A DNA stretch of 64,000 bases from Saccoglossus kowalevskii (lineage: Eukaryota; Hemichordata; Enteropneusta; Harrimaniidae), in the NCBI RefSeq assembly GCF_000003605.2, contig NW_003116954.1, forward strand, positions 55,561 through 119,560, given 5' to 3'. A program made the translations under genes and the position numbers. Of this stretch, positions 20,663 through 61,481 are shown piece after piece. Under the pieces are notes generated by a model. It had not been told where the DNA came from. It saw only the letters and a list, made by a program, of their open reading frames with translations, and did not search any database. Position 1 is the stretch's first letter; each line of letters begins with the position of its first letter.

Positions 20663-21092
20663 CAGTCCATATTAAATGAACCTACGCATACAATACTGAC
20701 CGGACAGTTGATCGTCCAATCAGAAGACATTTAGCGGTATTGAGTTGTTTATCGGAGAATCATTTGCAACTGAAGATGGAGCTATGATCAGTGTCTAATG
20801 CAGAGGAGTGCGTACTCGTTTTGAACCCATATGCATGCTACTGGACGCGAACACTGCTGTAATTGTATCTGTTGTCTCAAAGTCATATACTGTGAGTGGA
20901 TTTTGAGCGCGGATCGATAAAGACGATTGACCTAATAGTTACGTTATTCCGAGGCTCGTAATACAAAGAAGGATTTCACAAACATGCACATACGGGTGAG
21001 TCGGACGCGAAAACATGTATACACAAGCATATCTACTTAGAACGAGCCGTTGAAATTTGAATTGTTGGACGCCGAAAGTACAACTTTGCAGC

Positions 21093-27500: not shown

Positions 27501-29274
27501 CTTAGAGAAGAAAAATCTTTGACATGTTCAAATGTTTGCTATTCTATAACATCAATGTATGCATGAGAGCACGTAGTGACGTGTTCGTTTACATGTAACA
27601 CGCGTATTGGTTCACTGTCGCCTGGATTTGTCACGTATGTCCTACCAATGAAGTTATTTTCAGGTCAATTGTCATTTTATGTATATTGTATACGATAGTT
27701 ACCGTTTGTTTTTAACTCCGTTTGAGAATACATTTTTTGGGGCCATCTTACTCTCGTGATAAACGATGAACTACTCCAACATATCACAACATTCCCACGA
27801 GTTTGTATCTTTCGTGAAGTCCGCCATGCGACATCCGTCTGACCGTCCGTTTGATCTTTAGCATTATACTAGTAAAATTACCGGAAAAATCCGACTTTTG
27901 ACATCCCGAAAATATCCGAGTTTTGACTTGCATAATATATATATACATTAATGTATAAACGAAAAATAAAAACATATACCAATATTATGAACAAATTATG
28001 TAAATCATATGTTATTTATTATGCAAATTAGCCACCATCCTTAACCAAAATCCTGGGAGAACACTGCCCGGGCTTGGGAAGTATATTGGGCATATAGAAT
28101 ACTGGAATAAAAACGTCAGAGTTTAGAACACGTTGTCTTGCGATTTGCGAGATTGGTGGCGCTATTCTATCTCTTGTACTTTTTGTATGGGTGAAAACGA
28201 CGAGACTAATCGTGGCCATTATGTCACATACCGTCAAAGCTCCCAATAGAGAATTACTATCTTTGTACAAAAATACCGCTCTGCGTTTGTTTATTCATTT
28301 ACCGATTTTTTTTATCAGTTTGTATTGTTTGAATACTAATATTCGCCTGGCGATTTTATTGACATCTCGTTTCTGTTTGTCGATATTTCACTTGAATGAT
28401 TCACGTACAGTGGTTATTCATAATTCGCCAGACACGATGACACATTAAAGTGGGGAAGACGTCACCTGCGCACGCGTCAGATGGGCATAGCGTGTCATTG
28501 TTTACAAACAAGCGTCTACCAATGAGCCTTTGCGTTTTTAGCGTGTGTTGGTATCGTCGCTTATGACTCAATTTTTGTACGTGTGCAGGTGGCCCTCCCG
28601 CTTTAAGATTCAAGTATACTGTGCATCAAAAATAAAGTCTAACGTACTATATAATTATGAAGCATTAACGTAACTGTATATTGTTGTAGAATTAACCATT
28701 GTGACACGCTGTAGTGTGAATCCTATAACAGTTTATTGTACATAGTACAGTAACACAACTATTTGAAATTGGAATAAACTGAAATTTTGCACACAGATAA
28801 AATATAATTAAAATATATATTATGATCTGATTTTAGTTAAGTAATGCATTAATTTGAGTTGATTCATCGATAACATCGATTTATTCCTGTAGATATCTTG
28901 GCACCCATTTGGTTCAGTTCAAGTGAAATTGTCTGCATATCCCTGGTCAGATTTTATTGACAGTGAACACACAAGTACTCGATATTACACACAAGTACGA
29001 TATTATGCGCATCCTTGATGATTTTTTTTTTTGCAGAATCTCGTTCATATTAATTTGACAACTTTGTGAAGTGGAAACAGAGACTGGGGGATTAGTTCAT
29101 TCTAGACTTTGGTAGAACATATTCAAAATAGCACATTGTAAGCTGCAATTTCTTTCTAGCTTGTATAAATATATTGAGTGACACATTTTCGTACTAAAAA
29201 GAATCAATACAAAATTTTTCTTTAAATTTAACTTAACAGTTAATGGGAGCACACGCTACAGCTTCTGCTTACTT
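24503..29274. other. gene-poor stretch
   Basis: No recognisable gene. Simple repeats occur: TA runs near 25407 and 26161, and a CAATT pentanucleotide run at about 26944-26973. Open frames here are short and show no domains. Confidence 0.55.
26944..26973. repeat. (TTCAA)n pentanucleotide microsatellite
   Basis: About six perfect repeats of the five-base unit TTCAA (equivalently CAATT) in an AT-rich context. It is a simple microsatellite with no other feature attached. Confidence 0.85.
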
Positions 29275-30350
29275 ATGACTGAATGTTTTGTTTTGTTTTT
29301 GCAGGACTGGTGCAGAGCCAGAATCTTTTTTTTTTCTCAGAAAGCAAATCAAGTACTATACCATTGTCATTACTATACCTTGTCATTGTCAGAATTATAC
29401 GTTCATTGGTCATTGTGTTATAACTGTACCACAATTACACGATTTATTACAGCTGGTCAATTGTACCCGCACAAATCATTATACCATTTTTGCATTGTGT
29501 GTACTACCTTGCTCAAAACTGTCCAGAAACATTCAACTCAATCAAGCATCTGTCCATTATTTATATTTGTATTGATTGTTGTTTGACTGACTTTACTTTA
29601 TTTCACATTTCTGTTATGTTCTATATACTGAACTAAGTCAACTAAATATTGAGTTTTTACCGTTGTACTTGTATTTTCAACAAACCACTGGAACTACATA
29701 TAATATAAAAGCATATTATGCATGATGCGTATCTGACAATATTGTAGGCCTTTTTTTTCTTTTGAGGAATCCTGTCAACCAGAGCATAAATATGTGTTCA
29801 ATTCCACACGATTTGTTAATATTAATGTATAATAACAATGTATTTCTGAATTTGTATCATTATCATTATGTCTTTAGTGGAGATATTGAAACTAATCCAG
29901 GAATGTAGATGTATGTGAAAACCCAGTAAAGTTGTTGTCACAGGTACTGTTCATGTACACCAAGGATCATTGCCGTTTCTCAGTTCCTAATCTGGTGATA
30001 GTACTTGTATGACAAACAGTATCATTGCACTAGCACCGTCTTAAATATTGAAGATTTCTTACTGGAAACATTCGGTAATTGACATTGTCCTTGAATTAGG
30101 AATTCAGTTGTATAAGGAAGTTTGTCAAAACAATTAGAAAAGGAGAGAAATGCAAAGAGATAAAGTAGAAAAAATATAGAACAGTTGGAGAAGGAGAAGA
30201 ATGCAAAGAGATTAAAAAGAAAATATATACTTGAGGAAAAGTTGTATGTTAAGAGAATGAAATGTAAAAATGCAGTTGGAAACGATCGATTTAATAATAA
30301 ATTTTGAATTTCAGAGAGATTTATCTGAAAAACATAATGATCAACCACTA
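29275..30350 (+). mobile_element. decayed LINE-like relic with 2A-like motif
   Basis: A plus-strand frame at 29876-29905 reads SGDIETNPGM, which fits the 2A-like ribosome-skipping core D(V/I)ExNPG(P) except that the final proline is replaced by methionine, followed at once by a stop. 2A-like motifs are known in several invertebrate non-LTR retrotransposons. About 220 bp downstream, at 30131-30290, a frame encodes lysine- and glutamate-rich coiled-coil-like sequence with a 51-bp tandem duplication (QLEKERNAKR then QLEKEKNAKR) and an in-frame stop between the copies. No reverse transcriptase is visible, so the element is truncated. The family is unknown. Confidence 0.4.
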
Positions 30351-42171: not shown

Positions 42172-42637
42172 ATGACCTCCACAGAAATGATCGTCATCGA
42201 GGGTAAGACTCAGCCTGATGATGGAAAGACAGGTGCACCAATCGTTGAAGCCGCGTCCAAAGAGACCGAAACGCCTCGTGGAATACCCACCAGCAAAAAA
42301 ACCAAGAAACTCAGCAATCGCATATCCCAATTTGCATCAGCAGCATCAGCACATGGGATCAGTCGTGTATCATCATCGGTAAAACCAATGCACAAGATGA
42401 TATGGAGCATTATTGTTTTGGTTTCCTTCTGTGTGTTCACTTTACATGCCAGTGCATTAATTATTAAATATTTCGACTTCGATGTAACCTTTAAGCTGAC
42501 AGTCACAAAGAATAACACCATTGAGTTCCCTTCTGTGACATTGTGTAATATGAATAAGATGCGAAGATCAGCTATAAAGAGCACAATATATCATGACATA
42601 GCTAAATCTGATGAATATTTCCCAATCGTGTATAAAG
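42172..42637 (+). CDS. channel exon 1: N terminus, TM1, post-TM1 motif
   Basis: First coding exon, 155 codons plus one base. An in-frame TAA lies three codons before the ATG, which supports this start. Residues 1-60 are a polar, lysine- and threonine-rich cytosolic tail. HGISRV (61-66) carries the His-Gly pair needed for gating in DEG/ENaC channels. TM1 spans about 77-99 ([18 protein letters not shown]). After it come a sequon at N114 (NNT) and [15 protein letters not shown] from 119, matching the family's FPAVTxCN motif. The donor is AAAG|GTAAGA. Read-through of the donor would add only 11 residues before a stop. Confidence 0.9.
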
Positions 42638-45600
42638 GTAAGATATGTGTCTTTCTTATACTTTTCATTTAATCTTAAGTTCTATACTATTTCGAAACCA
42701 AATAATTTTTATTTATATTATTTTACTCATTGCTAAATATGAGTAAATCCGGACAATAGTATTGATGAATGATTTTCAGTTATGCTTTTGATACTATAAC
42801 CATCCTGATAGTTTTTGCAACTTGGACCAAGGAACTGTTTGTTACCATTTTCGATGTGTTTGGTATTCTATCATATGTTTTTGATAATGTTTATATGAGC
42901 CAAGATCCAAAATCGGCATTACAAATATAAGCATTATGAACGTTATTAAAAGCCATATAAAAGTCTCACAATTTTGACATGTTTAAGATACAAACTTATT
43001 CATAATCAATGTTTATCTTTCCAAAAATCGCATTCATTCTGATGAGTCACATATTGAAACATATTCATGGTACATGGTTGACTGATATGCAGCGTGTCAT
43101 GGTGGCGTTAAGTCATCTATCACTTAATTTGTTTGTATAGTAATTGCAAGATTTAAAATTTACAACAAATACATATGCTCGGCAGTTTTTTGTTGAAATT
43201 AGTCTCTTATTGTGGAATGAGCTTGCAACTTTTCAGCAATATAGATAGATTTTTAACTGTATCAATATTTTTAAATGTTGTTTGAAAACTCACACGGCAC
43301 GGCGGTGTGTGACGAATTAAGCGTTAATCCTGTATAGTATAGTCATTGGGTACATAGTGTACCAGATTTTTATTGTGTCACATGACACTATGATATTGAT
43401 AATTTTATATTGCATTTTGCGGGACATAATATATAAATAAGATAACATGGTGTTTCTAAATATAGTTAAAATATTAAATATTAAAACCAAGTGTATATCT
43501 AATTTGCATACTCAGTTTGAACAGCCTTTTGATCAATTGACAGCGAATGTCCAATATGTTTCTAAAACCTTTTTTTCTATCACAAGGGCCTTGTTCAGAA
43601 AATGATATAGCATGTAACGACATCGAAAATAACTGCATCAAACCATATATGCAATGTAATGGTGTAACAGACTGTTTAAACTCAGAAGATGAAAATAACT
43701 GCCGTAAGTAAACTAATGGTACATTGTTATGACATATTAAACTGCTTTTAATTAGGGTTATAGATAAGGCTTATATCCATATTGTTAGACTCCTGTCATT
43801 ATTTCTTCTTCTCGGCGGATTCTTTGGTCATCTATTATTACTTATTGAACTTTGTAGACCCTGAGTGAAAGTTATGCAGTGAAATCTTGCGAAAAGTTTC
43901 CACTACTTTGACAGCCATCTTGGAGTGAAGTTAAAGTGGAAGTAACCATTTGAAAGCTTATTTGGGGTTCTAGGCATTCTGATGTTGTTGCTATGGCATC
44001 ACTGGTAGATGGACTACCTATTTTATGAATACAAATTTAGCAGTCACGTCACGTACCCGTTACATTCGATATCTTGAAAAAGAAATTTAGAACCACACAA
44101 TACATTTATCTGAAATTTGGTATTTAGCATATATGTGTATGTAAGGCCATTGCCGTTCGGAAATTTCTAATGATTGATCACGTTCTTTGGCAGTTATCTT
44201 AGATTTCTTCTAAAAAGGAAGTAGTTGTATACTGATACGTGAAATTGATCGGTTTGAAATTTGTCATCTATAAATTGATCTACTTCATACAGCACAACGA
44301 TTATTTTAACCAATCACGTGATTTGATCATCGCAATTATTTTAAGCATTTGTTTTTCATGAGTATGTAATCAGTCAGCTTAAAAATTAAGCATGTAGTGT
44401 ATATGATCAAAGTTTTTAAGCACACGTTTCTCCTCTCCGTTGAATTTTCATCAAGCCATTTGTGAACACCACTGAACGTTATATTTCAAATCATGCTGTA
44501 CTTATTGGCCCTGATTTGATCTGATATACCTAATTTTCAGGATTTTGATTGGTCAACATTTTCGGCAGTCATATCGGATTGAAATAAATTAGAGGTTACC
44601 ATTTTGATCCAAAGTTTAGGCATTTTGCTTATTTTGTTCTCTTGTTATTGATATGTAAACTAGCAATACGTCACAAAAAAAAAACGCCATACTGGATTTT
44701 TAAAATATTTAACATATGCAGACATTGTGGCGCGCTCCTTGTTACAAACCATACACATGGCTTTGTATTGTCCCTTATGATATCAAGTTTCATTTGGCAG
44801 GCAATGCATTTTTTCTGATTTTGTTCAAAATTACATTTTCGATTACTTTATATTATCGAATATGATAATATAAATAATAACAGTGATATATTAGTTATAG
44901 TATATGTACACTTTTATAATGGAGGTTAGATTTACCAACTACCTAGAAAATTGTATCCGTAATATTGCTTGCACCNNNNNNNNNNNNNNNNNNNNNNNNN
45001 NNNNNNNNNNNNNNNNNNNNNNNNNTTATATATTTTATATATATATATATATATTGTTTTTAAGGCGACTGTTTTGAATCTGAATTCAAATGCACCGAAG
45101 GCGAGTGTATCCCATTAAACCAGAAATGTGATCACAAATTTGATTGTTCAAACGACTTGGACGAAGCAGATTGTCCTAAAGGTATGTATGGTTTATATTC
45201 ATAGTTGCCTTGGGTGTATGTTTGTATATATTGCTAAAATAGAAACCAACTGCAGCAGGCAATAATTATATAATTAATTCCAAGTACAATTATGACATTG
45301 ATCTATGTTAATAAATGTATATGTAAGGGATTTGAGGGTTTATACGTAACATAATTTGGTTGATTCGATGTATTAGCGGGAAATTTTGATTTTACCAATG
45401 TTTTTATCAATAAAATTTATCTTTTATTTGACACAAAAGTGTGTATTGTAACTCATCTCTCTGTCGTCTTAGTAACTTGCACTGCATTCCAGTGGACGTG
45501 TGACAACTTAGACTGCATTCCAAGTTCATCATTTTGTAATGGAATTCGGGACTGCTACGATTACAGTGATGAACCTGATAATGAAGATTGTAAATATCCA

Positions 45601-48600
45601 CTGCGTAAGTACAAATCTATACACGATATAATATTTGTGTGTCCCATATATTTTGTTTTGATATTGGCGATGTTATATTGTTTTGACTCTGGCACTTTAA
45701 CGTGCACAATGTCATATTCAAGAGTGGTAAAACTTTATTGGGTGAAATGCAGAAGGAAACTGAAAGTATTTTGATTTTGTTGCATTGTAGTAACGTTTGT
45801 TATTATATTGGCAAAAAAATCGTGTTTAACAAACTGTGTAGGTGTAACAATGATTTTTTCTCTACACACATTCTAGAACATTGATGTAGTAGAAACACTG
45901 AATTGGCTAAACACTGGTCCTTTTAATCGCCTTTCAGAGTTTTACTTTACGTTAGTAAATCGACAAATCAAAATTCTCTCGTATTATCACTATTAAGAAC
46001 CAAATTAAATTGTGCAATAAGTCTTATCCCCTAATAGCGCACAATTATAATCGTGCTATGCTTCCAGAATTATGACGGTATACTTGATATGTCTTCTTTT
46101 TATTGATGACAGAACAATGTTCGGAAAGTGAGTTTCGGTGTAATGATGGTACTTGTATCAGTGGTTCCAAAAGATGTGCCCACGCGTTGTTTTGGAATAT
46201 ATGTTCTAAAGGTGAAGAAAAACAAAATTGTGATAGTTGTGAGTAACTTTCTTGTTCATTTTTAATATTATATTTAGTGTGAGATTGGAAAATAAAAATA
46301 AAGAAAAATTGCTATCGTTTCCCTATACTATTGAGAAGACATGCATTAGAGACGATGGTGATTTTATGCTGTAAAATTTATACTCCGTTGCGCATTATGG
46401 TTATAAAGTTTTGAAATATATGAGCATATGAAGTATATGAAGTTATTTACATTCATTACATATATGCCATAATAGTTATGCTTTCTTTTGAGGCACCATT
46501 ACGATCTGTTGATATAGATAGGTCATAATAACTACTCTTCGTTTTAGAAAGTGTCCTATGAGACCAATAAGGTAATTCATGTACAGATATGCTATGTACG
46601 AATGTACAACATAAATATCACGTGAAAAAATTACCGGTATTACCGGTAAAGAGAAATAAATGCAACGTGTTTGTATTGTGCCGACTGGTAGCTGGGATAC
46701 TAATCATGTTAGATAAATACATTTACAAGTAGATACCAGTGTACGCGGCGAATAGTAATGCACTTCCTAATTGTTCTTAAAATTAATTCAATAAGCATTG
46801 TACCCACTATGTTATTCGTTGACTGATTTGTTGACTGACATATCCATCGAAATCTATACAGATATATCCCACCATTTGATTAATTGCTCAAACGTTGCTT
46901 TTTATGATTGAACACCAAACACAGTACATAGTTATGTTAATATATTTTTACATCAATCGAATTTAACATTCCAACATATTCTATTTGGCAGATACATGTC
47001 CCGACTTCACGTGTATCAACCACAAGTGTATTGGGGATGCAGATGTTTGCAACGGATATCACACGTGTCCTTTGGGAGAGGATGAAAATCCCGTGATGTG
47101 CGAAATTCGTGAGTAAATAATTTTGCAGTATCCTTGCAAGTTTGTATAGTGGAAATATTACTCCGAATTTGAATCATAAAATAGAAGTTACTTGGAGTCC
47201 ATGAACACAAAACAACTACAAATTAAGCACATAAACATTGCATTATTTAACATGATCGAATCACTAAAGGAATGATATATAGACTCCGAGGAGATGATAC
47301 CATTTTGTCATTTGATTGGTGGACGACGTTACACTGCATTAACAACTTATGAATCAATTCTCAATGTCATCAATTGCCCACATTATTAAGGCAAACTATG
47401 TTCTACGTATGATGGTACACACCCTATTTAGTCAGTCACTATGCCCGAGGATGTAGTAAATATGCAGACTTTAAAAAAAAAACATTATCTGTTTTCGTTC
47501 AAACCATTGGACCAATGGTTTTGTGGGGAACATCGCGCCCTAACATTCGAAAAGTGTACTTCTAAACGTTTAACACTGATAGATAGCGTATCAAATTATC
47601 ATTTGAGTAAACTATAAGTATTCAAATTGCATATTTTATTGGACAATAACAAAACAACTTTGTTGACATTGGTAATGAGAAATGTAAAACATTTCCTGTG
47701 GGTAAATATGTGTAAGTACAGTAGTTAATAAAAAGTAGATATGATTGGCAATCGAATTATATTCTTCAGATACATGTCCTTATTTCAAGTGTAGCAACCA
47801 CCTCTGCCTTGACGAATATGACGTATGTGATGGTTATCCTCAGTGTCCCAATGGAGAGGACGAAGATGAAGCTGCGTGCAACAACAGTAAGTAAATATTC
47901 ATCCACAATTGTTGAAATATTCCCGAAACGAATCACCCATTATTACTCATAATAACATTATTAAAACAACCAAAATATCCAGCTATTGTAATTGCTACTT
48001 GTCATGCAACAGTACAATAAAAAAGTACCGAATGGAAGTTGGGTGTCACAATGGTAACTTTTATAAATATGGACAAAATTTTGATTCACGTCATTGCACT
48101 GTGGATTTTCGAAATATGATGAATTTTTTCACATCTGATATTTTGAAGATATATTATATATTAACTATGTACATGTCATTGTAAATCATGAAAAAACAAA
48201 ACATAAAAACTTTGCTATAAAAGTTGATGCCTTGACATTAAATGACCTGCATGAAAAATAAGCACCATCAATAACATATTTGAGCGATAACAAAAATTGA
48301 GCATAATAATGGTTTGAACACAAAATTAAGATTATGCTGTATTGTTTTATCAAATTATTGACATCAAAACCATTCGCAACAAAAAGATTTGATAAACAAA
48401 AGTATGTAAAAGTGAAAATAATCAAAACGTTCATCTTTATACAAACGTTTCCATGTAGACCTTGTGCAAGTAATAAGAAACCCGCCCCTATGTATATTTA
48501 TGGAGTAAATGACGTAATTAATTATTTTGTATTCACATATAAACCAAAAGCTGCAACATCAACAAAATCTCATGCATATGCAAGATTACCCTATTAACCA

Positions 48601-51600
48601 TGAATCGATGTAGGCTATACGTGTAGTGTCATTTCAGCAAGCATTTAGCGGGCCATCTCGTTCTCAAATAAATATTATCAAGAGATTAACACACGACAAC
48701 CCGTGATATCGCGAATTTTATCATCGTATTTTCACGAGTTCTACCGCGTAAAACAATCAAGATCACTTGTAAATAGGACATCACGAAAATATCGCGTAAT
48801 ACTTATGATAGTAAATAAGTGATAGATAAATTCGAGATTGACGTAGTGAATTGGGTGTATAATTTGGTCTGGTATGAATTTCTGTTAATTAATCTCGGTA
48901 AAATAACACTAGCAAAACCAAGTGATTGATCGGTTGGAGTTGTCCATTCAAATGATCGTTTTTAAATATTTTCGCAGAACAAACATTATGTCTTTGAAGC
49001 TGAAATGGTAAGAACCAATGCGGTAGGTGTGATGTAGATCGGGGTGATTTTGATCAAGTGTAAACTTTCTCTACTGTTTGAACTCGGTGATTTCCGATCC
49101 CCCCCCCAACAAACAAAGAACCTAAAAGTCGACTTCGACAAAGAGAGTAAGAAAAGTCGACCCTAAATAATTTTGGCTTGTAGTGATTCTGCAGTGATGA
49201 GTCTTGTGTTTTGAAATATCCTATCTTTGCCAGCCAAGGATCGTTTATTCCTCCATCGCCTCACCGTAACATTTCGGCACAGTATATTTAAGTCTTCATA
49301 TAAGAGATAGTTTATTCAACGCATTGTACAATCACATTGATATATCGTAGACAAATAGAAATAGATTATGCTGTCAGTATATGAACACATATTTCAACCG
49401 TCACAATATAACTGTATTTACGGTAGGTCTCTGGGTATGAGCTGTGAATTGAACGACCTTTATTAAGCTAAAAAGTACTATACACAAGATTATTCTTCCA
49501 ATACTGTAGTCAGAGCTATTGAATGCAGTACAGTTCAAGAAAACAAGAAAAACCTTTATATCTATATAATCTATATTTATTTCATCTTTTTATGTCTGGT
49601 GTCGTTTAAATAATACCATCCAGATGTTGGCTTCTTGATATTTACTAATGGGGTTTTGGATTTCCATTATGTTGCCATAGTAAGCTGAATCTTACCTTGT
49701 TAATTTTGTAGCGATATGTACTGAGTTCAAGTGCAAGAGTGGGCAATGTATCAAACTGCGTTTTACCTGCAACGGAATTAACCACTGTCCTGATGGCGAT
49801 GATGAAGACGCCGATCTATGTGGACACCGTGAGTTGTTTATATGAATAATTATTCTCTACATCTTAATTCTAATAATATCCTTCATACACCACTAAGTGT
49901 TATCATATATTCAGCAATACACAAACCATTATTATACATTTAGCACGGAAAGCAATATACTGTAAAGTTCTGCATTCGCTCGAGCGTTCGAATTATCTTT
50001 TATATATAGTAAACTAAATTACCAGCCTTAATGCGTTAAAATTTATTGATTGTCACATTTGAACACTTTTCTTTGATTACATTAAACTCTATAAAAATTA
50101 ACATCACTCCTGGGATCTAACAATTACAAGTTTAGGCTATGAATGTGCACAACATTCATGATATGGCCAGTATATAAAATAGTAGTTGGACGTACATACG
50201 CCATACTTTCGAAAAATGTTCGTCAGTATCGGTACGTTAAAGATACACAATTTGAACAGATACAAATTTCAAAACATTACAAGGCTTTACCTGTATCAAA
50301 TGCTTGGCTACTGGGTTGCTAAGAAATGAAATACATTGTTATATAAGTTATTGTGCGTGTTATGCAAAAAAAAACTCTTTTCAAATACCTATCACCTTGT
50401 GATCACACTCAGAACTATGGCTGCATTATTTATACTCCCAACAGAACAAATAGTGTTTAAACGGTAGTTGATAAAACAAAGTGTCAACTCTGCCTAGAAT
50501 TATCCTATCATAATAACGTGTTCTATTTCTGGTGCATAGTATTTTAACTGGTTTTGTTCGTTTAGGTGTTACAAGTGTGTCATGTTGCGCGATTCAAATT
50601 CAGGTATTATATGTATGCAATAAGTTTTACTTACAAGAAAACGGAAAATTTGATTGTATGAAGAGTATCTACATTTTAGCAATGTTTGATACTGTAATGA
50701 ACTTTGCCATTTTATTTAAATTATTTTTAATAAAAACATTGGTTTTAAATTTTAAAAAAATACTATCTGAATGAAAGTGATTTCTTTTATCTCGTATCTC
50801 CGATCTCTTCTGAAATTGAAGCGGTCTTTACTATATACATCAGCCAATTAAAAATGAAAGAAAAGTGCATTAGTTGCAATTGATATTCTGTTTATTGATA
50901 TGGTTGTTAAAATACATACGAAGTCGTCTTGTATTTTTCTCTCTGATTCATGCCATTATTTGTGTTTATCTTCTTGGTTGATTCCGTGGATAATCAGGTT
51001 ATCACATTTCATCTGGCTTTCTTGTTTATCTCCAGCTTGCCTTTTGAGTTTCAGTTCGTCATTCGCCCACCCTGGTCTTAACTCCCTGTAATTCTTCTCT
51101 AAGTATCTTAACCGCTCCTGTTAATTCATCGACATTAGCATTTCTGATACAATATCTAAGCACTTAGTGTTAATACTTACCTTGCTCAATGGCATGTTAT
51201 CACTGCTTTCATTTCGTGGGTATAGTCATTGCGTTTTCAGTGCAAAATAGAATACGTTTGCCATAACTGTATTCTATGGTGAATAATTAATTGCTCTCCT
51301 TTTAATCTCCATAGTTCCGTGTCACGAGTTCAAGTGCAACAATAGTCGATGTATTCTCGAGGAGTTTGTATGCAATGGGAGAGATGACTGTAACGATGGG
51401 TCCGACGAAGATCCTGATATGTGTTCGAATTGTAAGCTATAAATATGTTAATTTTCCATATTTTAAAATAGTAGATACAACAAAAACAACAACAACATGT
51501 ATCTACTCAGTTGAAGCTGCGATGAATGAATGAAAGTAATAAACACGGATGAGGTATACAGATCAGATGATGATCTGATATAAACAATACTATTTATTCG

Positions 51601-54600
51601 AGCATTGGCTATCCAGCATCAATTCATTATTAACATTAAAAAAAGAAGTCTGTAGGGTACTTTTCTTTCCCCATTTTAAAACTAAAAACTGTGCCACTGT
51701 ATTTGGACATTATGAATATGAGTTGATAGAAATAGTGTGGCAACTGCAATAAATATTATAATGATGATGACTTAATATTATCAATGTTCTGTGTTCTGGA
51801 ATTTCATTTTCCGCGGTCTAAAAATATAACCACGCTCTATTGATTGAACGATGACACTGAGAAAATGGTGCGCTTCCATTTGAACCACTGTTATAATATA
51901 AATGTGTTTATACTACCAGAGTTTATTCCGAAAATCTTGGACACAACATTCATATTTTATTTTTTCTGCAAGGTATATCGATGATTGGATAAATGAGTGT
52001 GAAGCAATTGTAACACCCGGGGAAAATATATGTTCTTCACATTGTTCGAGTCAATATGAAGACGTTGATATAATTTCTGATACATTTGATTAATAATTGA
52101 TTAATGATTAATAATATAATTGTATAGCTAAAATAACAATATAACTTTAGACCACTAAACGAAAATCCCATAGGCAAAATACAACTACATAAACAATACA
52201 TTATACAAAATGAAGGTGATTAATAAGCAGGTGTTTCAAAATGAGTTTGCACATCTTGTTCCCCTAAGCCCTTCATACCGGTATTTAACGTCTCGTCCCG
52301 CAATGGTCAGAGGCAATTGCATCGCAAATGCCAATTAATAGACAAAGTTCAATTATCAAAGTAGAGTGGTCAAATGTTGATGATATTGATCAAAATATTG
52401 ATGGTTGATTCTCGCATGAATGACTTATGTTTACAAAATCTGAATTCAACCAAAGGTTGTCATATTTCATCGCAATTAGTTATACCTTTTTTTTTAATTT
52501 TTTTAAATCTCTGTCATTTGGTATTTATAACAAATATTTCAATATGTTAAATGTTAAGGTTAATAACTTATTACTTCAACAGCAACATTTAAAAAAATAT
52601 ATATATTCTATCATATACTTACCGTTCAATTTAAAGTTCATTTGTTCAAAACTCTATCATATGTTATGTATACTAACTATCTTATTATTTGCAATGTTAG
52701 GTATGTAAATTAAGTCATTAAATCAACAGCAATTATTTTTAATTATATAAAGCATAACTTATTTTGAAATCTATAATTTGTGTAGATGTGTGTTCTGGGG
52801 TAGTGTGTCGACACGGAACATGTGTAGCTGAACACCGTTTGTGTGATGGGCGAATGGACTGTTATGTTTTCCATGCACAGGATGAAGATCCTAATTTATG
52901 TAGAAATCGTAAGTAAAAAAACTTTGAAGCTGTTATCTCTTTTGTTAACAATCTTTGTAAGAATATAACATAAGATGCCAGTAAGAAAAAGACAAATACA
53001 AAAAATGTGTTCAATAAGCCACACATAGACATTGGCCCATAATAATCTATCTTGCAGTGTTAAATGACTGTTTGATTATTAATACACATAGCGGTAGGTA
53101 ATCTATATAGATATAATTCAATATAATAAGATTATGACTTATGTGAATCTTGACAAACGAACATTTGACTGAACACTCGAACTAAAAACATTGTGTTGTT
53201 TTACAAACTGCTATCAATGCATTACTTGCACTAGCTTAACGTCATACTTGAATTAATTCTGAAGATTTCACCTCAAAAAATATGTATGTTTGGTACATGC
53301 ACACAATAAAAATGTGCTTTTTTGGTCAAAAGTGATTTAAAGAAAATTAGCTCCTAAACCATGCTTCTGTTCCCTGTCAAAATTGGTTTATGGGTACATC
53401 TGTTTACTATGAAGAATGTGCCTTGTTGAAAACTGTCTACCAGTTGTGAATTTTGCAGGGCAGCAGCCCAAATTTCACTACTTCAAATTTATGCATATAT
53501 TAACACCCAGGCTAGTTGTTTGTACGATTGTTGTAACACTGTTCAAAGAAAAACAATACCCCGACGGCGTTTTGAAGATAAACACATTGTCAATCATTTG
53601 TGAAAATTTCAAAACAAAAGGTCAAAGCGTCTAGGAGCTATTTTTTTTGTTTAAAGTTCTAGGATGTGCACTAAAAAGAAGATGAGATAGTTGCTAATTT
53701 GCATAACAATCCACTCAGTAAGAAGTTTGCTAATGCTCATAATTTAAATAGCTGTAACAGTTCCAAATTTAAAGTATTATCATTTTGTTAAAAGTTAAAT
53801 ATAGTGCATAATATGGAAATCCCGTCACTTCTTTTTTTCACCATGTTTCTTTGCTATTATTTATGTATAGCCTTGCTAAATCTTGCTAAGCATTCAAAAG
53901 AGAATGTTTGCACCTTTTAACTATATTTCAAAATCGTTTTTTGAGTATGTTCCACTATTCACAATTCTACAAAATTTTAACAGTTTATAGCCAAGACTGT
54001 TTGGACAATAAAAAGCAAAAAAAAATATCACTCCCAAGTGCCCACGAACCTGCATCTTTACATTAAGCAATACTTTTCATAGGTACATGTGATGGGTTCA
54101 AATGCAGTGATGGCAAGTGTATTAATGAGCTCCTTGTCTGTGATGGGAATTATGACTGCTATGAGGAAGACGATGAAGAACTTGATTTATGTATAAATAG
54201 TGAGTATTCATTTAATCGTTTCTATCAATATCATTTGTAGTGAATTGAATTATTTTCAAAATATATGTAATTAGTAACCAAGTGATAACATATTAATAAT
54301 AATAAATAAAAATATATTTCTTTTTTTGTGATAAAACATTTAAAGTGTTTATAAGATTGTCCCCACTTTGAATACAAGTGTTTTTAATCTGCATAATTAC
54401 GTAAAGTTGATTTTATGAAAACACTTACAGTCAGTGTTTTTATTGCACAATTTCAGGAATGTTTTGGCCATAGCACATTAGGGAAACTGTTTCCAATAGG
54501 AACATGTTTAATAGGAAGTGTTTATTATCACAGCACATTTAAAAGTGATTTTACAAGACACGCATTATGTAACGTGTTTACATGAGGAACATGCACTGAA

Positions 54601-57600
54601 TAGTGCTTATTATCTTAACACTACTGAATGCTCTTTTACTAGATACACATTTTTAAAGTGTTTATGATCACGGCACGTACAAAAGTATCCCAACTGAGAG
54701 CATGTTTGCAACTATGATATTTGCATATATTTGCTTAGTGATTGCACTTAACTTCTATTTTGAAAAGTGTTTCCACCAGAAATATGTACTGAGAAAAGTG
54801 CTTTAACCCAAACTGAATATTGACAAGCGATTTTTATTTCAAGCACGACCAAGAACTTTGCACTATTGTACAGTAATCATAACACACAATGAACAAGTCA
54901 AATAATCGAGTAAGTTTGAGTATAATATTAACAAAACAGACTTATATAGTTGTTGTAAAAAAAAATAATATTAATCGCACAAAGAAATGTCCTCGACGTA
55001 TATTCAGCTGAAAAAAAAGTATTTACTGAAATTCAAACCATTCGTTAAACTGCAGATACAATACCTAGTAATTGTGAACATTGACATTACAAAATAGATG
55101 ATTATTAAACTGAAACGAACAATAATAGCTTTAAACCTTCCTTCTTTGACATAAATGCCAACCGTTTCCCATGTGGTATTGTTGTTTCGAATACAGTCTA
55201 CCTGGGGACATTCTCGAGAAAAACAAATCGTTGAATGAGCGTGCGCGCGACCAGTTATTTGAACAAGTAACATATAATGATGTTAATCGCGCACACCGTC
55301 GTTTACGAAAAATATCTCAACATGTTTGCAAAGAGATAACAAACTAAATTATTTTCCAATATTTGTTTTCATAATGTATTTATTGTAATAATGGAATTTC
55401 TAGTTAGTAGCTAAATAGTAATGTGATATCAGAAACCATATTAGATGGCATTCAACATTGAAGCTTCGCAAATAGAATAATAGCTATGAAGAAAACGAAT
55501 CTAATGATTTGATCGCAGGGAATTACCGCATTAACGACTGATTGGTGCTGCGTCATTCAGCTTACTAAATCGAGCAAGGATAACAGCACAGTGCATGATT
55601 AACTCGATCGGTTATTATTATGAAAAATATATAAATATATAAAGCTGTTTATTATTGCAAATACTAAAATCAATTTATTGCTGAATGCACAGTATTTTCA
55701 GTGTTGACGTGTGTGAGCATTTTTTCTAATAAATAAGCTGCATATAGTCGATCATAAGCATTGCTATTATTATAGATGCATACCACAGACGGCATACAAA
55801 CGTGTCCTGTATATGAACACTTATATATTCGGTTGTTTTGGTTACTCTATCAACTTATTTGTCGTCTGTATAAACATTTATGAAATCTGCATAGTCGACG
55901 TGTTTTGGAAAGTGCTTCACGATAAAAGCATTTGGAAGTTGTATAGTTACTCTCATGAATACAGAAGTGCCTAATACATTATCACTTTGCCAAACATTTA
56001 TAGCCTGTTGTGTTTGTTGAAACATCGTGGACGAGTTTTTAAAGTGTTTCAAATTGAAAAAAAATGTTTAAGTCACATGTGAGAATCCTCAAATGTGACA
56101 GACACTACAATCGCCATTCACTAAATGAGGAGTATTAAAATCCATTAGATCACGAGGTACTCAATTCACCACGTGTGTCGATTTCCGGTTGTACTTTTAG
56201 GATCATAAGATCATATACCCGTAATTGTCTAGGAAAATCTAGGCTTCGGAAATATACCTAATTTGCATATATTCAAAATGGCCGTTTTGTGCATTTTTAC
56301 AACATGGAAAATATAACAATTAGGACATATCTTTAATTCTAGATGACATTTTTTATATATTTAAGTTGCTGCGATATGGTTTGGTGTGTGTGAATGTATG
56401 CGATTGTGAAACATTTGATTGATTAACAACCATTTGCATAAATCCAATATGGCCGTCAAAATAGTATCATTTAAATATGCAACCTCGGGCGGCCCCTCAG
56501 AGTCTGTTCCACTTAATGACTCCAAAAGCCACGCCGTCGGGTGAGGGGGGACTGTCACTTCTGGGGTACCAGAGTCCTGCATTCGGTATTGCTTTGGAAC
56601 CTGCCGAGTGATGGACGTAGGGGCAACGCATCGACTGTGTTGATGGGCGGACCTTGGTCCCCCGTGGGGTAGAGGCCTAAGTCCTTAGGGTAGGTAAATT
56701 TTATGCTCAACCTTTTCCACCTGACCAAGCGCTATCCGACCAGGCAGTGTTTGAGACCTAGCCAGCAGAGTCTGGAGTCAAATCTCGCGTTCTGATCAGA
56801 TCCTTCGGTTCCTTCCCCCAACCCTGGTACCACAATTTTGTTGGTTCAGTGGGGTGGGCAAAATGGGTGGCCGTGTTTATCAAATATTTTGACCGGTTAT
56901 TCGGAAAAATCCATGCATTGACTGCAGATGGCGATCCTCAACCTTTGAGTTGTGGCCAGCCCACTGAAACAAATTGTTTTGCGCCGCCAGCACTCTGAAG
57001 TCTCAATCGGGGAACGCACCAGCCTCCTAGACCCATTGACCGGTTGGTACAGGTGGGACCTGCGAGCCAGTTTGGCTTCTGCCAAGGGCAAGCGGTAATG
57101 ACCCCAAGCTGAGAAAACATAACGACCAAAGTCGGCACCCACTAGCCAGAAGTGGCCAGGAGGCAAGGTTCTGGGGGAGGGAAGAGTGGCGACGCTCCCG
57201 TTAGGAAGAAGGGACCAGGTGTTGGTCCCCCCTTTCTCTCTCTGGGGTCGCCTACCCAGCTCGCAGGGGAAGCAGGTTTGATGCTTCCACATGCGGTAAG
57301 GGGGATGGGCATAAGTTCGGCGGAAGGCTGAGTCAAAACATATCGACTTCTTACAGGCCTCACGAGGTCTCACCTCGCCGGAGGAGAGATCACCCAGATG
57401 TGGAACCATCGAACCCACAAATTCCAATCGCACTCATTGCGCCAGTGTATTTCAGTTTGGAGGCAGCGCGTAACCGATTCCTTGACTCTCCAGGTGGCGA
57501 TACACGGTTACAAGATCCTGCTGCAATCCCCACCCCCCTGGCACCAGCCCCCGTTCGAGGCACTACCAGGGGATCCCCACAAAGTGAGAGCAATTCGACA

Positions 57601-60600
57601 GGAGGTAGATAGTTTGCTTACAAAGGGCGCTATACACAGGATAGGGCACTCGGCATTAAGTCCGGGCTTCTACTCGCGAATATTGGTGGTTCCAAAGACT
57701 ATAACTGAGACTACGGGTGGCTGTGCCACATGGACTTAAGCATACCAAATCAATATGAGCTTCCTGGAAACTCCAAGCACCATATTATTCTCTNNNNNNN
57801 NNNNNNNNNNNNNNNNNNNNNNNNNNNNNNNNNNNNNNNNNNNNNNNNNNNNNNNNNNNNNNNNNNNNNNNNNNNNACCTTGAGGTTTTGCAGGGCTTCA
57901 TACGTATTCACCTGATTGTGGAAACAGGTGGTGCTACTGCTGTGCTGGTACACATCACAACGATACACATCAACGTGTACCTAGATGGCTGGTTGCTACA
58001 CAACCCAACAAGGGGTTAGTCAAGCAGTAAGGCTAACACCAGATTTTCTAGACCACTTGTGCTTCCTAGTAAATCGAAACCATCCTCAGCCAACAAAACA
58101 GTTGGTGTTCCTGACCAGGGAGTTCGACACAGAGGTCGGATTGGTATGGTCACCTCAGGCCCATTCATTGCCTAAATGACGTAGATGAACGCCTAGTCAG
58201 CATTCCCTCTGTGTCTCTCTGAGAAGTAATGCGGATCACCGGAATGATGTCAGCGGGCCGCAATGTAGTTCCCCCAGGTCGCGTTATGCAGCCACCCATT
58301 ATAGGATACTTTTGTCACAACCCCAGGGAACTGGAGAGGTGAGCAACACTCTCGGACCAAGCGAGGAATGCCTTGCCCTGGTGTTCGGCAATTGCCAACC
58401 TCAGGCAGGGGGTTTCCTTGGACCCACTCGCAACAGCTGTGACTCTGGAAACGGATACCTCCCTCACATGTTGGGGAGCGCACCTATTGCACCAAAAAGC
58501 CCAATGGAAAATATGGCCCCTGCATTAGATTCAGGACTGCCATATCAAATGGCTCGAACTGAAAGAAGTGTGCTTAGCACTACTTCACTTAGTTTGAGAC
58601 CACAGAGTCTTGCTTTGCACGGCCAACACATCGGTGGTCTCCTATAGCTACAAGGAGGGGGACCAGATCCCCATCATTGTCAGTCCTAGCAGAGAAAATT
58701 CTCCTTTAGTACCTGGAATACAATGTGGAGCTAGCCGCACACCACCTTCCAGGGGTGAGAAACAGTCAAGCGGATAGCCTCTCATGACGGCTCCATCACC
58801 AGAACACAGAGTGGCGGATACCCCAATGGGTAACCTTCAGACAGTGGGACGGTCCAATGTTAGACCTATTCCCCACACCCCAGAACACCAAGCTACTGAC
58901 GTATACAATATTCCTGCCGATGCCAGGAGCCTTTGTCGACCCCCGTGAACCCACATGGACGTGTAAGCCTTTCCTCCCTTCCTGCTATTCACCGGGTACT
59001 GGAGAAACTTCGACAGGAGCGCATCTGCACTTTGACGCCGGTAGCGCCCAATGGGCCAAGCAAGGTCTGCTTTCCACTACTGCTAGAAATGTTAGACGAA
59101 ACACCAGGGGTGCATCAGGACTTCCAAATCTGCTGTTCCAACTGGACGGTCCACTGCCTTTGAGCCCGGCAGTGTACCACATACATGCATCAAGGCTCTC
59201 GGTTGACTCACTCAGTGGGCTGCTAATTCCTGGCCAGGGCGAACAGGGATCCCACCAATACAGCCTATGCCTCGAAATGACGTGCGTACACTGATTGGTG
59301 TAGTGGAAGGGAGATCCATGCCATTTCTTTGTTGGCCAGACAGCTGACTTTTTGTCCATCGTTTGAACGAAATGGATTGTCCTTTCAGCGATTGTTGGCT
59401 ATAGGTCAGCCTTGTCACTATTGGGATTCTCTTGGAACTAGGCTAGCTGGTTGTCCTACCATTAGGAGACTATTAACTGTTTAATCAGAGGCCTAGAGCC
59501 CGAAACCAACCAATTGGAACTTCTCAGTTGTGCTGGTCGCTCTAAGCAGACTGCCCTTTGATGCTCTCGATCAGCACCACTCAAATTGTTGAGGTGGAAA
59601 ACAATCTTCCTACTCACCCTCGCCTCAAGTAGGCGTCAGGCTGAAGTAGGGGCCCTGTCATTCTCGGACGGGTGTGTCGTATTTAAGGAACAATCAAGTC
59701 GTGATAAAAACACGAATTGGGTTTCTCGCCAGGAAGCAAATCCCAGGACGCGATCCACAACAGATCGTCATTCCTGTAATGACTGACAAGGAGGCAGCCC
59801 CTGAATTTCTCTTGAGGATAGTGAGATGCAACTGCTCCACAGACTGTCGCAGTCTCAGATGTACCTGCAGAAAGCACAACTCTGAATGTTCTGCAGATTG
59901 TGGTCAATATCGAGGATCAGGATGCACAAATGTAGTCCAGATATCTGATGAAGATAGCGATGACGATTAGCAATTAAATTTTTAAACAATAAACTTTTGG
60001 ACAGAATTATAACTAATTAATACAGTTTGTTAAATCAATAACATAGTTTATAGAGTTGATATTTTACATTTAAATGGTCTATTGTGTATATAGTATAGCA
60101 AATTTGTAGATCCAACCAAGGTGTTTCATTCCTCTAGTTTTTTTTTTTTTTTTAGATGGGACGGCCATGTTAGATTCATACAGATGAAGCATCTGTCTAC
60201 CCAGGAAATCATGTATTTACATCTGTTCTGTACTGTACGATTATGTTTAAAATATGCTAGCATTCTAGCATCTTAAACTTATCACGTATGCCACATAGAA
60301 GAAAAGCCGGAAGAGAAGTTACATTAAATAATTATATTATCGCGGCCATATTGAATTTATGCTAATTTTCAGTTACCCAATCAACACATTTAGCACTCTC
60401 ATACCTTCCCTGACTCAAAACAGTACCATAGCATCATGAATTTTTAAAATACCCCATCTAGAATTAAAGATATGTCCAAATAGTTATATATTTCCATGTT
60501 GTAAAAATGTGCAAAACGGCCATTTTGAATATATGCAAATTAGGTATATTTTGGAAGCCTAGATTTTCCTAGACTTTTAGTATGTCAATCTAGATACCTT

Positions 60601-61481
60601 TCCGAAAAGCACTGTGAAGAAATTATTTCTGTTGCAATTTGTGACGGGTTGGCCCCCTTTTTTGCTAGAATGACTGGACTAATATATACTTTCCAAAAAT
60701 CAGACACATTTTCTTTAATAATTGCTGTATACTCGAGTGCCTTTGACTAATTTTGTTGATTCTTCGTAAAGTATTCTCATATTATTTGTCAATGTACAAA
60801 TTATTAAATTGAACTGCATCGTCATCAACAACATCCAAACTTGTTACAGATTAATTTGAGTCAGAGTGGTATATATTTTACTGAGTTGGAAACCACACCA
60901 CTGTTTAGATTTTTTCTAAAATTGATAAAATGCTCAATTATATATTTAAATTGTGGTGTATATAAAAATGTTGGTGTATATAAAATAATCCGTTGCTATT
61001 AATTAATTTGTTTAAAGAATAGTTACATGTATTATTTCTATTTTGGTGGATTGATTTCATGGATAACATTCACCTGTTAAAAAGTTAATTGCGATGTGAT
61101 TCACTTTTGACGATTTGTGGGACAATATGCATTTTAATGTATTGATGTATGCGGAGAGGATGTTTAAAAGTTGAACTCTATAAAGATGTGGTGCGTTTGG
61201 TGTGTTTAGTATCTAAAGAAAGTCAATATTAGAATTATGATTTGTTTAAAATTGTCCATGAAATACCAATCATGATACAAATCAAACATCAACAATACTA
61301 TTTTGGTTTTGAATATTTTTTATAACAAATTGAATGGCATGATGATCTCTATTACTAGGATGCAGTGAAATGTTTGGATTTTTATGTCACAACCGTAAAT
61401 GCATAAGTAATTCCTCCGTGTGTGATGGAAACAAAGATTGTCGTGAAGCAGAAGATGAAGATATGTTGTTGTGTACGAATC
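42172..61481 (+). CDS. DEG/ENaC-type channel with LDLa array, 5' part, 12 exons
   Basis: Partial gene. The twelve exons detailed separately join to 596 codons plus one base: a cytosolic N terminus, TM1 and start of the ectodomain, then eleven LDLa modules. All introns are GT-AG and all interrupt codons after the first base, so every module exon can be duplicated or skipped without a frameshift. The DEG/ENaC assignment rests on HG before TM1 (61-62), TM1 at about 77-99, and FPSVTLCN at 119-126. Members of the family are trimeric sodium-permeable channels gated by acid, peptides or force. The cysteine-rich palm and TM2 with its selectivity filter are not in the window and should follow downstream. 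The module array is very unusual for this family. The alternative is a chimeric gene model of two neighbours, but the uniform phases and lack of any intervening stop or start make one transcript likely. Confidence 0.8.
43587..43703 (+). CDS. channel exon 2: LDLa module 1
   Basis: Phase 1-1 exon of 117 bp (residues 156-194) with six cysteines. It starts CSENDIAC and ends with the acidic [11 protein letters not shown], a usable calcium site. Cysteine 1-2 spacing is six residues, as in classical LDLa. The acceptor TCACAAG and donor GTAAGT are good. It follows the channel's post-TM1 segment directly, which places the array about 35 residues after the FPSVTLCN motif. Confidence 0.9.
44976..45025. 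other. assembly gap (50 N)
   Basis: A run of 50 N in the intron before LDLa module 2, followed by a TA microsatellite. The round size suggests an arbitrary placeholder, so the true missing length is unknown and could hide another module exon. Confidence 0.95.
45065..45181 (+). CDS. channel exon 3: LDLa module 2
   Basis: Phase 1-1 exon of 117 bp (residues 195-233). [16 protein letters not shown] and [15 protein letters not shown] give a textbook LDLa module with six-residue first spacing and an intact DxxDC...DE calcium signature. Donor GTATGT. Confidence 0.92.
45473..45604 (+). CDS. channel exon 4: LDLa module 3
   Basis: Phase 1-1 exon of 132 bp (residues 234-277), the longest module. It has [16 protein letters not shown] and [18 protein letters not shown]. 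The last loop has 11 residues instead of eight, yet keeps SDE. The donor is C|GTAAGT, and a long open frame continues into the intron, which should not be mistaken for a separate gene. Confidence 0.92.
46113..46238 (+). CDS. channel exon 5: LDLa module 4, atypical
   Basis: Phase 1-1 exon of 126 bp (residues 278-319). All six cysteines are kept ([16 protein letters not shown]), but the fourth loop is longer (AHALFWNIC) and the usual DC...SDE acidic cluster is replaced by [11 protein letters not shown]. The calcium site is probably weak or lost. Donor T|GTGAGT. Confidence 0.85.
46992..47108 (+). CDS. channel exon 6: LDLa module 5
   Basis: Phase 1-1 exon of 117 bp (residues 320-358). It is the first module of a variant type: only four residues separate the first two cysteines (CPDFTC) and ten the last two ([12 protein letters not shown]), against six and eight in modules 1, 2 and 4. 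Donor C|GTGAGT. Confidence 0.9.
47770..47886 (+). CDS. channel exon 7: LDLa module 6
   Basis: Phase 1-1 exon of 117 bp (residues 359-397). It has the same variant spacing as module 5 (CPYFKC...[12 protein letters not shown]). The exon start ATACATGTCC is identical to that of the preceding exon, consistent with a recent tandem exon duplication. Confidence 0.9.
49712..49828 (+). CDS. channel exon 8: LDLa module 7
   Basis: Phase 1-1 exon of 117 bp (residues 398-436). Variant spacing: [31 protein letters not shown]. The preceding 1.8-kb intron shows no further module on either strand. Donor C|GTGAGT. Confidence 0.9.
50905..51125 (-). mobile_element. LINE ORF1-like relic in intron
   Basis: On the minus strand one frame reads coiled-coil-like sequence ([15 protein letters not shown], then [15 protein letters not shown]) followed by [16 protein letters not shown], a stop, then [16 protein letters not shown]. 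The (R/C)xNLIIHGI block after a coiled coil is typical of ORF1 proteins of non-LTR retrotransposons. Only this piece is visible, with at least one in-frame stop. It is a decayed, truncated copy lying antisense in the intron between modules 7 and 8. Confidence 0.55.
51315..51431 (+). CDS. channel exon 9: LDLa module 8
   Basis: Phase 1-1 exon of 117 bp (residues 437-475). Variant spacing with the most canonical calcium signature of the set: [17 protein letters not shown]. Donor T|GTAAGC. Confidence 0.92.
52786..52908 (+). CDS. channel exon 10: LDLa module 9
   Basis: Phase 1-1 exon of 123 bp (residues 476-516). CSGVVC keeps the four-residue first spacing, while the last loop is stretched to 12 residues ([14 protein letters not shown]). 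DGRMDC and DED are kept. Donor C|GTAAGT. Confidence 0.9.
54083..54199 (+). CDS. channel exon 11: LDLa module 10
   Basis: Phase 1-1 exon of 117 bp (residues 517-555). Variant spacing: [31 protein letters not shown], with a strongly acidic last loop. Donor A|GTGAGT. It precedes the largest intron (7.2 kb), which is filled with repeats. Confidence 0.9.
54470..55245 (+). repeat. long dispersed repeat, copy 2
   Basis: Direct-orientation copy of 39480-40225, in the intron after exon 11. The left part shows degenerate units of about 95 bp around AGTGTTTATTATCACAGCAC. The right part keeps CAGCTGAA, CTGAAATTCAAACCATT, AATTGTGAACATTGACA and TGTGGTATTG in the same order. Confidence 0.75.
56227..56345 (+). 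repeat. left terminal inverted repeat of composite element
   Basis: It starts GTCTAGGAAAATCTAGGCTT and ends TTTAATTCTAGATG. It matches the reverse complement of 60455-60574 with only a handful of mismatches. Weaker inverted similarity continues inward to about 56455 (block AATATGGCCG). Confidence 0.9.
57794..57876. other. assembly gap (83 N)
   Basis: A run of 83 N inside the reverse transcriptase part of the fossil retroelement. It probably reflects a repeat-induced assembly break. Confidence 0.95.
59785..59970 (+). pseudogene. CxC-type cysteine-rich coding tail
   Basis: The frame ends in a TAG at 59968-59970 and contains [26 protein letters not shown] and an acidic tail DEDSDDD. This Tesmin/TSO1-like CxC cysteine cluster is familiar as the C terminus of repeat-borne proteins in many invertebrate genomes. 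It is not a usual DIRS part, so it probably comes from the element that owns the flanking inverted repeats. The AT-rich sequence after the stop, with AATAAA at 59988-59993, may be that element's 3' end. No promoter or upstream part of this protein is recognised. Confidence 0.5.
60455..60574 (-). repeat. right terminal inverted repeat of composite element
   Basis: Reverse complement of the left repeat, ending AAGCCTAGATTTTCCTAGAC. ACTTTTAG follows immediately and also occurs about 30 bp before the left repeat. I cannot confirm it as a target-site duplication. Confidence 0.9.
61359..61481 (+). CDS. channel exon 12: LDLa module 11
   Basis: Phase 1-1 exon of 123 bp (residues 556-596). CSEMFGFLC gives a seven-residue first spacing, like the classical modules, while the last loop ([12 protein letters not shown]) has ten residues, like the variant ones. 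DGNKDC is kept. The donor C|GTAAGT opens an intron that does not close within the window, so the gene continues to the right. Confidence 0.9.

Follow-up and report, generated by a model that had tools for sequence, protein, structure and literature searches.

The window analyzed here, a stretch of 64,000 nt from Saccoglossus kowalevskii (contig C1055, positions 55561-119560), carries the beginning of a gene in which a DEG/ENaC channel subunit is combined with an array of LDLa modules. The gene outgrows the window: followed to the right along the contig, 21 exons can be joined to a protein of 1020 amino acids without a single stop and with matching phases at all junctions. These exons lie on one contig and one strand in the order exon 1, 15 LDLa exons, finger, beta2, palm and two thumb exons. 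We regard it as practically certain that they form a single gene, intact over its readable part, for a DEG/ENaC subunit with 15 LDLa modules in its finger. The exons and the adjoining run of N are given below, with window positions for features inside the window and C1055 positions for those to the right of it. TM1 and TM2 denote the first and second transmembrane segments and C958 is a paralogue described further on; all 15 LDLa exons are of phase 1-1.

42172..42637, + strand, exon 1: ATG, cytoplasmic N-terminus with HG motif, TM1, beta1 with FPSVTLCN, start of the finger
43587..43703, + strand, LDLa module 1 (best match C958 module 1)
45065..45181, + strand, LDLa module 2 (best match C958 module 2)
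45473..45604, + strand, LDLa module 3 (best match C958 module 3)
46113..46238, + strand, LDLa module 4 (20.5 bits, under the Pfam cut-off; six cysteines, most acidic calcium positions gone)
46992..47108, + strand, LDLa module 5
47770..47886, + strand, LDLa module 6
49712..49828, + strand, LDLa module 7
51315..51431, + strand, LDLa module 8
52786..52908, + strand, LDLa module 9 (21.3 bits, under the Pfam cut-off)
54083..54199, + strand, LDLa module 10
61359..61481, + strand, LDLa module 11 (best match C958 module 14; donor at 61481)
C1055 119849-119974, + strand, LDLa module 12, right of the window
C1055 121668-121781, + strand, LDLa module 13, right of the window (half module with four cysteines)
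C1055 122716-122832, + strand, LDLa module 14, right of the window
C1055 126776-126913, + strand, LDLa module 15, right of the window (24.5 bits, a narrow pass)
C1055 130361-130670, + strand, finger exon, ending GHQREDTILQC...KKC (picked by eye beside relatives)
C1055 131090-131196, + strand, beta2 exon with EYGNCFTFN (picked by eye beside relatives)
C1055 131454-131617, + strand, palm exon (83.4 bits with a profile built from nine palm exons of other loci)
C1055 131734-131820 and 132045-132153, + strand, two thumb exons (picked by eye beside relatives)
C1055 133374-145594, run of N of 12.2 kb, beginning 1.2 kb past the last exon

The sequence-only reading had taken exon 1 for the N-terminus of a DEG/ENaC subunit, and this assignment is confirmed by Pfam, with a match to positions 1-91 of ASC (68.4 bits, E 8.4e-19) and TM1 followed by the FPSVTLCN motif. 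The exon closes at 42637 with the donor GTAAGA in phase 1, the finger exon likewise opens in phase 1, and AG...GT borders in phase 1-1 were found at each of the 15 LDLa exons in between. The eleven single-module LDLa exons predicted within the window were all recovered at their positions, and the array of "at least eleven" modules was extended to 15 by the four to the right of the window. All 15 modules match Pfam PF00057, 13 of them above the curated cut-off of 24.1 bits. With an LDLa profile built in this analysis from 20 seeds, eight of which were taken from C1055, the modules score between 16.4 and 52.1 bits and the best match outside the array reaches 9.7 bits (searched in 163.5 kb of the contig, including 31 kb of N). 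In the joined protein Pfam detects ASC with 154.7 bits in two stretches, the second being 129-328, and Ldl_recept_a with 260 bits, of which 12 stretches pass individually. No other Pfam domain was found in it at E 0.01, in particular no EGF domain, YWTD propeller or LRR.

The same reading had also named the lack of palm and TM2 exons to the right of the window as grounds for refutation. The exons for finger, beta2, palm and the two parts of the thumb do follow there, with matching phase and strand; a search for a TM2 exon through the readable sequence of C1055 55561-219060 (163.5 kb, of which 31.3 kb are N) found none, and its highest score, 9.2 bits, lies upstream of the gene. In the 15 family loci for which a palm and a TM2 exon are both listed within 20 kb, the two are separated by 1.9-8.9 kb, and the TM2 exon of the C1055 gene is therefore expected inside the run of N.

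LDLa modules fold around calcium. Six cysteines are present in 14 of the 15 modules, with exception of module 13, which has four. We defined the acidic calcium set as D or N after Cys4, D before Cys5 and a D-E pair, read by eye, before Cys6. If N is allowed at the first position, this set near Cys4-Cys6 is present in 11 of the 15 modules, six of which have D after Cys4.

Two paralogues elsewhere in the genome were read for comparison. The first, on the minus strand of C4507 (604842-614329), is a compact member of the family which is readable from TM1 to TM2 and comprises TM1 with FPAVTVCN, five LDLa modules, an ShK module, one further LDLa module, finger, beta2, palm, thumb, beta strands and TM2. 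The latter reads GLYIGVS, with GVS as selectivity filter. Pfam assigns 264.5 bits to ASC in this protein (best stretch 128-455 of 455), together with six LDLa stretches and one ShK domain. A short in-phase exon (605454-605524) was left out of the protein used for the Pfam and PDB searches, and the start codon would lie further upstream, because the first exon seems to open at an acceptor. The ShK exon (L040, C4507:611007-611126), which stands among the LDLa exons, is itself of phase 1-1. From finger to thumb the C4507 and C1055 proteins are 37% identical. Searched against PDB without its modules, the C4507 core matched ASIC2 and FaNaC1 with 1.6e-35 each and ENaC gamma with 1.7e-31, whereas a two-sequence finger-to-thumb profile of C4507 and C1055 ranked ENaC alpha first (3e-31), followed by FaNaC (2.6e-24) and ASIC2 (2.3e-22). 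The core and the profile thus point to different subfamilies of channel.

The second paralogue, C958, carries TM1, at least 18 LDLa modules and a palm exon, all on one strand; the count is a minimum, as the stretch 27500-30001 lies outside the sequence examined, and none was found on the opposite strand of these 20 kb. When all modules of both genes were compared in a score matrix, modules 1-4 of C1055 were best matched by modules 1-4 of C958 and modules 11-15 by modules 14-18, in order. Thereby the half module of C1055 (module 13) pairs with a half module of C958 (module 16, at about 34134), and the four-cysteine form has been kept in both genes and is therefore not the result of recent decay. 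Module 4 of C958 resembles its counterpart by eye in that its acidic calcium positions are mostly gone. The middle modules, six in C1055 and nine in C958, match many-to-many, so that growth or loss must have occurred in this part of the array.

For the nine paired modules (333 codons) we obtained a proportion of nonsynonymous differences (pN) of 0.193 and a proportion of synonymous differences (pS) of 0.776 at an amino acid identity of 65.5%. The ratio of nonsynonymous to synonymous rates (dN/dS) was computable in five of the nine module pairs and amounts to 0.04-0.17. The corresponding values for exon 1, the palm and the first thumb exon (223 codons) are pN 0.206, pS 0.567 and dN/dS 0.228, with 62.8% identity. 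The nine paired modules are thus about as constrained as the channel exons.

Searching the genome (572 Mb) with a palm exon yielded 45 matches at E up to 0.1, C1055 included, the two weakest with E 0.005 and 0.03. In the corresponding LDLa search 150 of 1658 candidates were scored, and the C1055 modules are not among these 150; all counts of LDLa-linked loci are thus lower bounds. At least 22 of the 45 palm exons are preceded by LDLa modules within 40 kb on their own strand, compared to 0.12 expected from the density of the listed LDLa matches. Among the latter, LDLa modules were found downstream of four of the 45 palm exons, where they may belong to tandem neighbours, and on the opposite strand at two. 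In 11 of the 22 loci a TM1 exon is listed as well, and the LDLa modules lie between TM1 and palm. The genome thus likely holds a family with at least 23 LDLa-array members, 22 by position and the C1055 gene. The three members that were read have arrays of six modules plus ShK (C4507), 15 modules (C1055) and at least 18 modules (C958).

These data bear on two other explanations of the locus. The LDLa exons might have come to lie beside a channel exon by chance or by an error of assembly, or the gene might be a pseudogene; the contig does contain runs of N, one of them with 50 bases within the array. This is scarcely conceivable in view of the exon order, which recurs in both paralogues (C4507, C958) and, judged by position, at the 22 or more palm loci, the 1020 amino acids without a stop and a pN far below pS. 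Alternatively, two overlapping transcripts could be encoded: one for the channel, with exon 1 spliced straight onto the finger exon, and one that uses the LDLa exons, either a transcript of its own for a secreted protein or receptor or a minor splice form. Phase 1 on both sides of the array means that skipping it as a whole preserves the frame, and a short form is therefore possible; moreover, the gene was read from DNA. Against two transcripts stand no fewer than 11 other loci in which LDLa modules separate TM1 from the palm in the same orientation, the colinear array of C958 and the joined protein with ASC and LDLa as its only Pfam domains, and we consider this explanation very unlikely.

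Not all DEG/ENaC genes of the genome seem to be of this type. Seven N-terminal matches of another type, five on C3473, one on C2355 and one on C648, run from TM1 through the finger uninterrupted by an array; two of the seven contain stops, and none has LDLa modules within 40 kb downstream among the matches listed. It appears that LDLa-less DEG/ENaC genes exist alongside the LDLa-array family. The five matches on C3473 (25621-111409) extend from the N-terminus to the finger and occur in both orientations, one of them with two internal stops. Eleven TM2 exons were read elsewhere in the genome, ten of which contain GxS. The eleventh (L031, C4796:107228-107611) reads GFC, which may mean a channel of altered selectivity or one that works poorly. 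A further locus, C4670:36558-41390, differs from the one-module exons described above: it is a single open frame of 1735 codons, to which 25 of the 150 LDLa matches listed belong; no palm exon was found on C4670 in the genome palm search.

The position of the array within the channel was deduced from an alignment between C4507 and ASIC2. Chain residues 43-116 of ASIC2 are covered by the N-terminal part and the alignment resumes at residue 157; the array lies in between, at the end of exon 1. The residues up to 116 presumably reach the alpha1 region of the ASIC structure. The finger segment following the array is longer than in ASIC2. Judged by this alignment, the array was apparently inserted into the finger, after alpha1 and before the remaining finger, which was not replaced. 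ASIC2 (6L6P) and FaNaC1 (8ON7) share with C4507 the FPxVTxCN motif, the palm, the thumb cysteines and the GxS of TM2. Their agonists are the proton and FMRFamide, respectively, and we know of no ASIC or FaNaC channel with an LDLa array in the finger.

ENaC (SCNN1A, B and G; PDB 6BQN, 6WTH) has the same DEG/ENaC core and is the best PDB match of the finger-to-thumb profile. According to PMC6197857, the finger is a region of strong difference between ENaC and ASIC. In ENaC it bears a regulatory insertion between the helices alpha1 and alpha2, the GRIP domain, which is situated at the ectodomain rim; loss of the protease-sensitive segment of GRIP has been proposed to move finger and thumb. In contrast to GRIP, a domain of beta strands with protease sites, the C1055 insertion consists of 15 LDLa modules with one module per exon. 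From the alignment it can be inferred that the array and GRIP may use the same site in the channel. This would fit the idea that the array is an inhibitory, protease-regulated module in the manner of GRIP, which shuts the cleft between finger and thumb as long as it is intact, the channel being opened by a cut within or beside the array and binding being secondary. The profile ranking, with ENaC subunits first, points in the same direction. However, 15 to 18 modules seem excessive for an inhibitory tract, and the paralogues differ in module number; we hold a GRIP-like function of this kind to be unlikely.

LDLa modules in the ectodomain are also a property of the LDL-receptor family and of RXFP1/2, and RXFP1 signalling needs an LDLa module. 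These proteins are endocytic receptors or G-protein-coupled receptors (GPCRs), in contrast to the C1055 protein, in which Pfam detected none of their EGF, YWTD propeller and LRR domains. The sequence-only reading knew of no well-described DEG/ENaC channel with such an array. In the literature searched, subscription journals, preprints, supplements and predicted-protein databases being outside its scope, LDLa modules were not found described for any channel of this family. Likewise, the terms LDL and lipoprotein do not occur in the main text of seven papers on DEG/ENaC channels or sensory receptors (PMC9822975, PMC9949801, PMC10148893, PMC10507113, PMC9234716, PMC6827283, PMC11526382). Records of predicted proteins with the ASC plus LDLa architecture may well exist. 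Neither the channel family nor the module is new; the novelty seems to lie in combining the two, in the scale on which this has happened and in the position of the array within the channel.

DEG/ENaC channels are known to be gated by protons, peptides, force or proteolysis. For the LDLa-array members we propose that the subunits would form a trimeric cation channel, from whose ectodomain rim the calcium-folded modules would project as antennae. An array bound to a ligand, to the matrix or to the surface of a neighbouring cell could then pull or free the alpha1-alpha2 part of the finger. This part would correspond to the site of GRIP in ENaC, the removal of which has been proposed to open the channel via finger and thumb. 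The symmetric 1-1 exons would moreover allow splicing and exon duplication to alter the length of the array with the frame kept. That a ligand or tether load on the array, fixed to a moving part of the channel, changes gating is a tentative proposal, which could prove right but is somewhat more likely to fail. Another role could be surface delivery or lateral assembly, by adhesion to neighbours or binding of chaperones, with no part in gating. LDLa modules of other receptors do bind chaperones such as RAP; the position in the finger makes a role in gating plausible, and a pure delivery function seems decidedly unlikely to us.

Taken as a joint claim, the LDLa-array DEG/ENaC architecture together with antenna gating is in our estimation probable. 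Several points weigh against it. The gene is known from DNA, and TM2 of the C1055 copy would lie within the unreadable run of N. Where the array enters with respect to alpha1 and alpha2 follows from a sequence alignment which has no match across that very stretch. The acidic calcium set is incomplete in four of the 15 modules (4-7), and five of the remaining 11 have N instead of D at the first calcium position. In C958 it is a loose splice rule that allows phase 1-1 in 17 of the 18 modules, the exception being module 1. Synonymous change is saturated in the pooled modules, whose pS is too high for a pooled dS, so that their constraint shows only in a pN far below pS. Finally, 23 of the 45 palm exons, including that of C1055, have no upstream LDLa among the matches listed, at least partly because 150 of the 1658 LDLa candidates were scored.

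A natural, constrained binding array in the finger, multiplied over the genome, would offer a direct handle on how the pore responds to forces or ligands acting on the finger. Such an array would also represent a clear case of a receptor-channel that originated by exon shuffling, with phase-1 flanks and inserted 1-1 exons. One could go further and envisage a hemichordate class of receptor-channels, LDLa-array DEG/ENaC proteins whose module set differs between paralogues, constant at both ends and variable in between, which would be gated directly by lipoprotein, matrix or microbe-surface ligands and would constitute a large, diversified sensory or immune-like family; we put this forward as a speculation that is doubtful at present.

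The mitochondrial contig of the genome (17037 bases, 16363 of them read) makes a hemichordate origin likely, perhaps close to Saccoglossus, rather than one from a mollusc or annelid. With genes named by eye from translations, nd5 is the neighbour of cob, nd6 is encoded on the opposite strand, and cox1 and cox2 lie on different strands. ATA occurs at sites of COX2 and cytochrome b that usually hold isoleucine, and AAA at COX2 sites that usually hold lysine. According to PMC2697986, ATA codes for isoleucine in echinoderms and hemichordates but not in Xenoturbella; AAA codes for asparagine in echinoderms and for lysine in Saccoglossus and does not occur in Balanoglossus; and Xenoturbella and both hemichordates have nd5 beside cob. 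A search for molluscan haemocyanin (PF14830) gave no match, and its controls gave none either.

Two other features of the window were recorded. The intron between modules 10 and 11 contains, at about 56500-59970, a block of 46-57% G+C against a background of 30-34%, falling to 41% in a bin with a run of N. Five of its open reading frames gave no Pfam match at E 0.01; with its long overlapping open frames the block looks like a decayed mobile element. Upstream of the channel gene, an intronless open frame of 378 amino acids (21054-22190, + strand) encodes a class A GPCR (7tm_1, 159 bits), whose closest solved structures are GPR21 (2.2e-35) and GPR52 (1.8e-33).

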